Program-made: the position numbers and the translations under genes | Part shown: positions 16,269-53,177 of the stretch, one piece after another | Layout of the letters: the number at the start of each line of letters is the position of its first letter | How positions within the stretch are numbered: position 1 is the stretch's first letter | The notes under the pieces: model-generated | The model's input: the letters and a program-made list of their open reading frames with translations, nothing else | Databases searched by the model: none | Told to the model about the DNA's origin: nothing | Origin: Aurantibacillus circumpalustris | GTDB lineage: Bacteria; Bacteroidota; Bacteroidia; B-17B0; Aurantibacillaceae | Assembly (NCBI RefSeq): GCF_029625215.1 | Contig: NZ_CP121197.1 | Coordinates: 744,001-808,000 of the forward strand | DNA: 64,000 nucleotides | Reading direction: 5' to 3'

Positions 16269-16312
16269 AACGATGGATCGAAAAAAAGCCCCAACAATTG
16301 TCGCGACTTTAG

Positions 16313-16375
16313 TGGAGAATATCGGATTCGAACCGATCACCTCTTCATCCCGACCCGAGTCGGGACGAAGCGCTC
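16313..16375 (-). pseudogene. tRNA-Ala 3' remnant with replaced anticodon loop
   Basis: On the minus strand this segment repeats the D-arm 3' strand, anticodon stem, variable loop, T-arm and acceptor 3' strand of the intact tRNA-Ala at 16646-16719. The whole flanking copy 16282-16347 matches 16615-16680 over 66 bases with one mismatch, and ten more bases (CGAAGCGCTC) match beyond the loop. The 7-base anticodon loop is replaced by an 18-base palindrome (TCCCGACCCGAGTCGGGA on the plus strand). No 5' half exists, so it cannot make a tRNA. A copy of the terminator-like tail follows it at 16281-16308. Confidence 0.85.
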
Positions 16376-16608
16376 AGCAGACTTTCAATGTACTTTCTAC
16401 TTTTCTTTCGTTTAATCGCATTTTCCCTCTTACGTGTTTCCGTTCTGGTAGCGTACTGTTCGAAATAAACTATTTCCCAATCTGAAGCAATCGAAGTATA
16501 TGGAGAAGTGCCAGAATTATGAGACACTAATCGCGTTTCCAAATTATCAGTTTGACCAACATAATATTTGTCTTTGACTTTTGAGTATAATATGTAAACA
16601 AAAAACAT
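16345..16608 (-). CDS. GIY-YIG single-domain nuclease inserted at tRNA-Ala
   Basis: This 87-residue protein is a stand-alone GIY-YIG (UvrC/Slx1/URI-type) endonuclease domain. The motif appears as VYILYSK at residues 4-10 and YYVGQT at 15-20. The family's Arg is present in LETRLVSHN, and the Glu region reads RKRENAIKRKKSRKYIE. Relatives of this size are common in Bacteroidota; their cellular role is unsettled. Its ATG lies only 7 bases past the T-run of the tRNA-Ala terminator-like hairpin, leaving no room for its own promoter. Its last codons and TGA stop lie in the modified anticodon arm of the tRNA remnant. Near-identical 66-bp repeats flank the gene, so it appears to be the cargo of a small inserted unit of about 333 bp. 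Confidence 0.88.
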   Translation of the reverse strand: MFFVYILYSKVKDKYYVGQTDNLETRLVSHNSGTSPYTSIASDWEIVYFEQYATRTETRKRENAIKRKKSRKYIESLLSASSRLGSG

Positions 16609-16614
16609 CTTATT

Positions 16615-16639
16615 AAAAAAGCCCCAACAATTGTCGGGA
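16615..16639 (-). terminator. Terminator-like hairpin after tRNA-Ala
   Basis: On the minus strand CCCGAC-AATT-GTTGGG forms a 6-bp stem (one G-U) followed by GC and six T residues, directly downstream of the tRNA. A second copy with one mismatch that weakens the stem lies at 16281-16308. Confidence 0.65.
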
Positions 16640-16645
16640 CTTTAG

Positions 16646-16719
16646 TGGAGAATATCGGATTCGAACCGATCACCTCTTCACTGCCAGCGAAGCGCTCTAG
16701 CCAAATGAGCTAATCCCCC
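16646..16719 (-). tRNA. tRNA-Ala (anticodon GGC)
   Basis: The 74-base minus-strand sequence folds into a full cloverleaf. The acceptor stem GGGGGAT pairs with ATTCTCC (two G-U pairs). The D-arm contains TAGCTCA...GAGC. The anticodon arm CTTCG-CTGGCAG-TGAAG carries GGC, and the T-arm ATCGG-TTCGAAT-CCGAT is perfect. The discriminator is A and CCA is not encoded. A -7-like box TATTTTTG lies just upstream (16736-16743 on the plus-strand numbering). Its 3' part is duplicated 333 bases downstream beyond a GIY-YIG gene. Confidence 0.97.
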
Positions 16720-52708: not shown

Positions 52709-53125
52709 ATGAACTATTGGCTTATAAAATCAGAACCCTCCGCTTACAGCTGGGAGCAACTTAAAAAAGACAAAAAAACAGATTGGACGGGGGTTCGCAA
52801 CTATGCCGCCCGCAACAATCTGCGGGATATGAAAAAGGGAGATTATGCCTTTTATTACCACAGTAACGAAGGGGTTGAAATTGTTGGAATTGCCAAAGTG
52901 GTGAAAGAAAGTTATCAGGATCCGACTACCAAAGAAACGGCTTGGCTGGCGGTGGATTTTGCCCCGGTAAAAGACCTTAAAAAACCTATTAGTTTAGAAA
53001 CGCTCAAGAAAGATCCGTTTTTTGCAAATATGGACTTAGTAAGGCTTGGAAGATTGAGTGTTGGAAAAGTGACGGAAACGGAGTTTTTGAAGATTTGCGA
53101 CATGAGTGGGACGAAACTGGGTTAG
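52709..53125 (+). CDS. EVE domain protein
   Basis: The 138-residue protein is a complete EVE domain (related to the PUA/YTH fold, which reads modified bases). It starts MNYWLIKSEPSAYSWEQL, with DWTGVRNYAARNNLRDMKKG and YYHSNEGVEIVGIAKVVKE following, then the late FFANMDLVRLGRLSV. EVE proteins may recognise modified cytosine or other modified nucleobases, but the role of the free-standing form is not established. It is single and divergent from the atp operon. Confidence 0.93.
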   Translation: MNYWLIKSEPSAYSWEQLKKDKKTDWTGVRNYAARNNLRDMKKGDYAFYYHSNEGVEIVGIAKVVKESYQDPTTKETAWLAVDFAPVKDLKKPISLETLKKDPFFANMDLVRLGRLSVGKVTETEFLKICDMSGTKLG

Positions 53126-53134
53126 TAAAACACT

Positions 53135-53177
53135 AACCTGCCTGCCGTCGCACGGCCTAAACTACGGCAGGCAGGTT
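53135..53177. repeat. GC-rich inverted repeat with 14-bp arms
   Basis: AACCTGCCTGCCGT (53135-53148) and ACGGCAGGCAGGTT (53164-53177) are perfect complements around a 15-base loop, 10 bases after the EVE gene stop. There is no T-run. It is GC-rich compared with its surroundings and resembles dispersed REP-like palindromes. It is followed by CACGAATTACACT, related to the repeat at 16212-16268. Confidence 0.75.

Follow-up and report, generated by a model that had tools for sequence, protein, structure and literature searches.

A single-domain GIY-YIG nuclease gene and a hairpin-altered tRNA copy form a candidate mobile unit at tRNA genes of Bacteroidota

Background

In integrase islands that target tRNA genes the 3' end of the tRNA is duplicated and an intact tRNA is restored, and in the anticodon loops of tRNAs group I introns with GIY-YIG genes combine a tRNA target with a homing nuclease. 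In RAYT/REP systems a DNA-cutting enzyme has its own palindromes beside it. The GIY-YIG nucleases UPF0213 and SLX1 are not known to be tRNA-linked or mobile. A free-standing GIY-YIG homing endonuclease, SegB, is found in T-even phages, and a study of it reports that its gene adjoins tRNA genes of many isotypes, and that in phage T6 there is a SegB-dependent tandem amplification of the unit formed by tRNA-Tyr and segB, for which recombination between sequence shared by the tRNA and segB is proposed (PMC13096335).

Here we describe a locus of Aurantibacillus circumpalustris, within a stretch of 64,000 nt of contig NZ_CP121197.1 (positions 744,001 to 808,000; hereafter the window), where a small GIY-YIG gene, of a kind that family libraries label by domain only, is flanked by a tRNA gene and by a disabled part of the same tRNA. 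It looks like a minimal selfish element with tRNA genes as its targets, which it does not destroy. Among the matches listed from the open-licence full-text PMC literature there was no description of a nuclease arranged with a hairpin-altered tRNA copy, and the palindrome strings and one encoded peptide occur in no open-licence full-text PMC paper.

The tRNA-Ala(GGC) locus

All features of the locus lie on the minus strand. No second gene with the anticodon of the intact tRNA-Ala(GGC) (16645-16719, called by ARAGORN) was found in the complete 4.6-Mb genome, where the remaining two full-length matches are 84% identical and both tRNA-Ala(TGC). The intact tRNA is followed at 16615-16644 by a terminator-like hairpin and T-run, identified by eye, which belongs to a 66-bp repeat (16282-16347 versus 16615-16680) with one mismatch and a spacing of 333, reported by the first-pass annotation and confirmed here. 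The repeat consists of nt 40-75 of the tRNA and the 30-nt terminator and is far beyond chance; in the displaced copy the tRNA part (16312-16347) is 100% identical to the intact tRNA and the terminator (16282-16311) has the one mismatch. That the repeat resumes for 10 bases past the anticodon loop was likewise borne out by the sequence and by chained alignment blocks, the piece in question (16366-16375) being tRNA nt 23-32 (GAGCGCTTCG), which reaches the 5' strand of the anticodon stem.

What had been overlooked is the hairpin that lies between these two pieces. The displaced copy has the 18-nt palindrome TCCCGACTCGGGTCGGGA with its 7-bp arms (16348-16365, from the sequence, a genome pattern search and a fold) exactly where the intact tRNA has its 7-nt anticodon loop CTGGCAG, and it retains the stem strands CTTCG and TGAAG on both sides. 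When folded as single-stranded DNA the displaced copy forms a continuous 12-bp hairpin and a T arm, at -16.4 kcal/mol (z -3.4). The single-domain GIY-YIG frame of 87 aa (16345-16608, from the list of open reading frames and a match to PF01541) is the sole conserved gene of the 333-bp unit and terminates within the displaced copy, and it lies outside introns and inteins as its own ORF between the tRNA copies. The description of the unit as containing only a GIY-YIG gene needs correction, as it left out both the palindrome and the end of the frame within the displaced copy.

Two kinds of element known from tRNA genes were considered and rejected, a group I intron as the tRNA is uninterrupted and there is no ribozyme, and an integrase element as the unit holds no integrase; the earlier analogy with integrases fails on the same point of content. 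The earlier statement that the element brought a replacement 3' half is unsupported, since an identity of 98% between the two 66-bp copies, with the terminators counted in, leaves the direction unreadable. That same likeness would suit a passive history, in which a tandem duplication of the tRNA was followed by the arrival of a harmless GIY-YIG gene between the copies and by decay of the spare one, with no homing at all. We consider such a history improbable, and points on both sides of it are given below as they arise.

The nuclease

The window protein matches PF01541 with an E value of 1.8e-15 (57.4 bits, cut-off 22.6), as do all 17 aligned members of the family, and a domain search found no second domain in its 87 aa. 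Four residues, Y5, G18, R26 and E62, are invariant in 17/17 aligned members and correspond to the conserved Tyr, Gly, Arg and Glu positions of the GIY-YIG nuclease superfamily. The nearest solved sequences are the UPF0213 proteins 1zg2 (E 1.5e-11) and 1ywl (2.9e-9), followed by SLX1 (1.7e-4), and no other solved relative appears at E 0.01. Two of the 17 members match the phage homing-endonuclease family phrog_314 and two match phrog_5123, the window protein matching neither, and a group I intron endonuclease model gives a weak match, below its cut-off, in five.

Over 102 close pairs of nucleases, which are not independent of each other, the median dN/dS is 0.107 and 99% of values fall below 0.5, a pattern that points to strong purifying selection on the family and speaks against a harmless bystander. 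Some recent tandem pairs are without sign of constraint, with dN/dS of 0.77 at locus L145 and 0.76 at L136, and the tandem copies at L153 differ by 3-4 replacement changes and zero silent ones.

At E 1e-5 the window protein has no match in 50,697 phage records or in 72,556 plasmid records, so that no vector is seen, and carriage by phage or plasmid was rejected on these two record sets. A scan of viral contigs with the tRNA-Val subfamily gave 95 pattern matches, of which 0 were confirmed.

Other units in the same genome

There are five GIY-YIG matches in the complete genome, and a tRNA gene with a GIY-YIG gene and a repeated tRNA part, the pattern that the first-pass annotation had suggested looking for, recurs at tRNA-Val(TAC) and tRNA-Arg(TCT). 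Two GIY-YIG genes lie in tandem 3' of tRNA-Val(TAC), and after each comes a displaced tRNA-Val copy with a palindrome as its anticodon arm; a fourth gene lies 3' of tRNA-Arg(TCT), where long palindromes occupy the D loop of the displaced copies. At the tRNA-Val locus (L002 1815-2773, contig C1 of the same genome, about 2150423-2151381) there are also about ten near-identical 89-bp units, each formed of the 5' part of tRNA-Val and a palindrome. The array is placed between the intact tRNA-Val(TAC) and an apparent promoter, judged by eye from its motif, and its units would be part of the tRNA-Val precursor transcript. The fifth gene (L005, 28% identity) sits without a tRNA within an array of repeats of about 68 bp that resemble CGTCACTGCGAGG (L005 267-2475).

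The palindrome TCCCGAC..GTCGGGA, searched as TCCCGACN{0,12}GTCGGGA, has 12 sites in the genome, of which 11 are in displaced tRNA copies and one is in an ordinary terminator, and the reversed control pattern has 0 genome sites. There are four exact genome sites of CCTGCCG..CGGCAGG, three in the tRNA-Arg(TCT) unit and the only one outside it in the window at 53137-53175, a 39-nt palindrome (CCTGCCTGCCG..CGGCAGGCAGG) directly after an ORF at 52709-53125.

Association with tRNA genes across Bacteroidota

Relatives of the nuclease are present in at least 72 of 100 genomes searched, the genome of the window included. One set of 94 loci was taken from this and related genomes as part of the matches listed, and a second set of 79 named loci was chosen on nuclease similarity alone, being the best 79 of 188 confirmed stretches. 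In the second set ARAGORN placed a tRNA within 300 nt on the same strand at 62 of 79 loci, 51 upstream and 11 downstream, with 0 antisense; the background density in the same scan was 4 tRNAs in 257,574 bases lying more than 600 nt from nuclease genes. With both sets pooled, the same-strand 300 nt around 177 distinct nucleases hold a called tRNA in 124 cases, some of which may sit on displaced copies as with three known miscalls, a tRNA fragment only in 45 and neither in 8, against 0 called tRNAs and 3 fragments in 80 control window pairs.

The targets range over twelve amino-acid classes of tRNA and one tmRNA, and to find one association at all of these, never antisense among the 79, is not what a passive history would lead one to expect. 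At the tmRNA (L144 485-1197) the GIY-YIG gene lies directly 3', with the tmRNA terminator region repeated on its far side. Two named Patescibacteria are among the four loci of a tRNA-Ser(GGA) clade. At L151 (about 830-1380) a GIY-YIG gene without a nearby tRNA or fragment has inverted-repeat units, GACGTTGGACT..AGTCCAACGTC, on both sides.

Two architectures of the displaced copy

A significant displaced copy was found in 108 of 129 rows, a table in which L006/L173 and L008/L177 are each one place under two names, with one of the two pairs among the 108. In 84 of these rows, the window included, the order is intact tRNA with terminator, nuclease and displaced copy, often with its own terminator (type A). 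The 24 others have the mirror order (type B), in which a promoter region and the 5' part of the tRNA with a palindrome precede the nuclease, and a further promoter region and the intact tRNA follow it; these become 21 when L002 'Cys', L014 and L226, which are ARAGORN calls on displaced copies, are removed. In type A the median distance from the tRNA end to the nuclease domain is 46 nt and the nuclease frame enters the displaced copy in 67 of 84 rows.

The displaced copies of type A start at tRNA nt 1-9 in 30 rows, at nt 10-25 in 38 and later in 16, the full range being nt 1-59. An impression from the Val, Arg and Ala loci that the copy always starts at nt 8 was rejected on this range, and the same range, together with the mirror type, leaves no general rule of entry near the anticodon such as had been proposed. 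Such varied starting points, with 4 of the 84 at nt 1, are in keeping with a passive history. The two ancient full-length tRNA-Ala copies that would have refuted the first-pass interpretation were not seen at the tRNA-Ala locus, though in view of the same four rows duplication first and invasion later may have been the route. Against simple decay, the displaced tRNA keeps 91% identity over its last 20 nt in 34 loci whose terminators have diverged, a figure favoured by the choice of alignment.

Hairpins within the displaced copies

The hairpins are substituted into arms of displaced copies only, in the D, anticodon or T arm. Inserts of at least 10 nt number 125, centred on the anticodon loop in 39, the D loop in 23, the T loop in 16 and the stems of these arms in 40. 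A perfect stem of at least 6 bp is present in 72% of them and in 7% of their shuffles, the 28% without such a stem including some long stretches between chance alignment blocks. The commonest form is TCCCGN..NCGGGA, with 33 of 68 distinct hairpin inserts beginning TCCCG and 33 ending CGGGA.

Covariation was followed in 20 inserts hand-picked among those of 18 nt, two of them poorly paired, in which 96.4% of cells are paired, with 21 two-sided changes, 0 one-sided changes and 5 unpaired cells. The covariation score of these hand-picked inserts is 0.423, compared with a shuffled mean of 0.136 and 0/500 shuffles as high; one of five measures, the number of further pair types (6, shuffled mean 7.5), is not above the shuffles. 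Decay of a spare copy would not place paired, covarying hairpins in the loops of a tRNA, and this again counts against a passive history. G.U pairs make up 7 of 514 in the hairpins, 31 of 551 in the terminators after displaced copies and 286 of 2204 in the tRNAs, and since they are so rare in the hairpins the pairing is, we suggest, kept as DNA.

This last observation favours a second explanation, in which what moves or is processed is really the hairpin, the nuclease recognises the cruciform of its own hairpin in a RAYT/REP-like manner and the tRNA is a favourable scaffold for folding. It is helped by the solved relatives named above, which are structure-specific nucleases, and by the distribution of the hairpins over the nuclease tree. 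In 74 rows the hairpin arm needs 17 changes, with at least 20 in 500 shuffles and at least 18 in shuffles within isotype (0/500 as low), and the hairpin shape needs 21 changes, with at least 26 in shuffles and 2/500 as low within isotype. Furthermore, one nuclease clade (SH-aLRT 97) has units at tRNA-His, -Pro, -Lys and -Leu(GAG), in all of which a double hairpin immediately precedes the conserved TTCRA of the T loop, and the member at tRNA-Arg(CCG) has a double hairpin of like kind in the D loop. Against it, no displaced copy outscored the shuffles in the members of this clade at tRNA-Arg(TCT), which also has a double hairpin, and tRNA-Leu(CAG), and the match of hairpin type to clade could in part arise because nuclease and remnant are simply inherited together in a single cassette.

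Palindromes of the form TCCCGAT..ATCGGGA are also dispersed away from GIY genes, at 0 to 76 per genome in 15 genomes, and the hairpins are therefore not exclusive to the nuclease unit. A restriction of palindromes to tRNA copies is borne out by TCCCGAC..GTCGGGA (11/12) and mostly by CCTGCCG..CGGCAGG (3/4), and not by this dispersed form. By eye, at least 3 of 18 dispersed copies (L250, L253 and L264 of the set L250-L267) occupy a loop closed by a larger inverted repeat, as might be expected if they targeted hairpin loops; this would agree with the hairpin being the mobile part. Their number does not obviously scale with that of GIY genes, as G013, G017 and G081 have 3-4 GIY matches listed and 0 palindromes, and taking both sides together we think it unlikely that the hairpin is the mobile part and the tRNA a scaffold.

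Nuclease lineages, tRNA identity and host

The nuclease tree of 116 rows, from which three with odd tRNA labels (L189 '???', L226 'Stop' and L014 'Glu') were left out, has few columns and 62 of its 113 inner branches are open, and for this reason only its overall clustering is used. On it tRNA isotype and anticodon require 39 changes, compared with a minimum of 79 and a mean of 86.5 in 200 shuffles. Host genus, in the 86 rows that have one and with labels that mix group codes and NCBI names as two unmerged schemes, requires 43 changes, compared with a minimum of 48 and a mean of 52.5. Nuclease lineages follow tRNA identity more than they follow host.

Occupied, decayed and empty sites

The tRNA-Ala(GGC) site was compared over 30 loci of the genus, out of 37 genomes with a match; a tRNA was called in 29, four of these only 87-92% identical. 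G000 has the full unit. In G030, within the same RR/gcvP neighbourhood, there are three tandem 258-bp units in which the nuclease appears by eye to be reduced to its first and last codons, a nuclease profile search of them finding none, and hairpins occupy both the anticodon loop and the T loop of the displaced copy. G016 lacks a nuclease and has a displaced copy whose anticodon hairpin is nearly identical, and G015 has an 18-nt tRNA piece upstream of the tRNA. In G039 a nuclease lies 359 nt downstream, and G021 gives a partial match in antisense. In three species, G010, G028 and G033 (loci L072, L076 and L080), exact 16-17-nt pieces of the tRNA-Ala 3' end lie at +143 to +152 without a nuclease, possible scars of the nuclease unit or of integrase elements.

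At 20 of the 29 loci, one of which (L069) ends 89 nt after the tRNA, there is neither nuclease nor tRNA piece, and in G017 (L078) the empty site keeps gcvP divergent from the tRNA, as in the window. Relatives therefore have unoccupied sites, as for a free-standing homing endonuclease. A gene-order search by mqnA, covering loci from 29 of 39 relatives, gave no empty site, as 0 of these have a tRNA within about 1500 nt; it was the tRNA query together with gcvP that gave them. The recurrence of the unit at other tRNA genes and the existence of relatives that lack it support the first-pass view of a small unit that leaves a working tRNA and a displaced remnant, and that interpretation as a whole is partly supported.

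The patchy presence of the unit within one genus bears on a third explanation, a system useful to its host, in which the displaced tRNA end diverts integrases as a decoy attachment site, or tRNA dosage under attack is raised by the nuclease. Type A copies often retain the T arm, acceptor strand and terminator, which is the part of a tRNA that integrases use, and strong purifying selection on the nuclease would be expected of a useful gene. There is a precedent for dosage in the SegB study, where SegB is reported to amplify tRNA-Tyr against Septu (PMC13096335). However, type B copies hold the 5' part instead, a disabled copy yields no extra tRNA, and matches to defence models are weak and partial only, on which ground a reading as a defence system was dropped; with the patchiness added, benefit to the host seems a remote prospect.

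A possible mechanism

We give about even weight to the proposal that the locus is one unit of a homing-like, tRNA-gene-specific mobile element, made of a single-domain free-standing GIY-YIG gene and a partial, disabled copy of the target tRNA, the cleavage and the movement being read from sequence arrangement. In a chromosome or sister copy that lacks the unit, the nuclease would cut the cognate tRNA gene or a hairpin into which that gene folds, and homologous recombination would repair the break, with one arm supplied by the intact tRNA and the other by the displaced tRNA part. Because these are the arms of repair, the nuclease gene would be copied in and one functional tRNA, which is essential and here single-copy, would always be rebuilt. 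The hairpin would stop the displaced copy from acting as a tRNA and probably shields it from re-cutting or marks the end of the unit, and it may itself be the structure recognised by the nuclease. The same breaks would yield the tandem units, the arrays of 89-bp remnants and the internally deleted units.

A difficulty for homing is that the intact tRNA adjoining the nuclease should be cut as well, and no clear mechanism of immunity is apparent; the tandem units and arrays may mean that this neighbouring tRNA is sometimes cut. In the genome comparisons made, no strain-level insertion polymorphism of the unit was seen. A broader formulation, which we hold to be doubtful, would make this a new class of minimal mobile element that joins a single-domain, structure-specific GIY-YIG nuclease to a cognate DNA hairpin placed in, or recognised from, the loops of a spare tRNA copy, both spreading jointly among the tRNA and tmRNA genes of Bacteroidota and of some Patescibacteria as a GIY-YIG counterpart of RAYT/REP with the cloverleaf as scaffold.

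If about 95% of a sampled branch lies on tRNA genes or pieces together with a hairpin-disabled copy, that branch gains a context and a testable role, with the unit as perhaps the smallest mobile element to target tRNA genes, made of a single nuclease domain and a borrowed piece of tRNA. It would also explain arrays of tRNA remnants and palindromes at tRNA genes, would tie chromosomal biology to the SegB amplification of phages, and might provide nucleases specific for individual tRNA genes.

Comparison with known systems

Each of the systems named at the outset shares something with this unit. Integrase islands also act at tRNA genes, whereas the unit here is without an integrase, is about 333 bp long and has copies that hold the 5' part (type B) or are altered by hairpins. 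In group I introns a tRNA target and a homing nuclease also come together, whereas the tRNA here is uninterrupted and an Rfam search of 37 other loci listed no intron. RAYT is a Y1 (tyrosine) transposase, from a different superfamily to the GIY-YIG enzyme here, and the hairpins here lie in tRNA arms. UPF0213 and SLX1 are alike in being the closest solved sequences to the window protein.

SegB of the T-even phages is the nearest known parallel. The sections of its description that were consulted make no mention of a hairpin-substituted tRNA copy, and SegB is phage-borne (PMC13096335), unlike the window protein, which is unmatched in phage records at E 1e-5. What the two have in common is a GIY-YIG gene beside tRNAs, tandem repeats of tRNA and nuclease, and sequence shared by the 3' end of the nuclease gene and the tRNA (PMC13096335).
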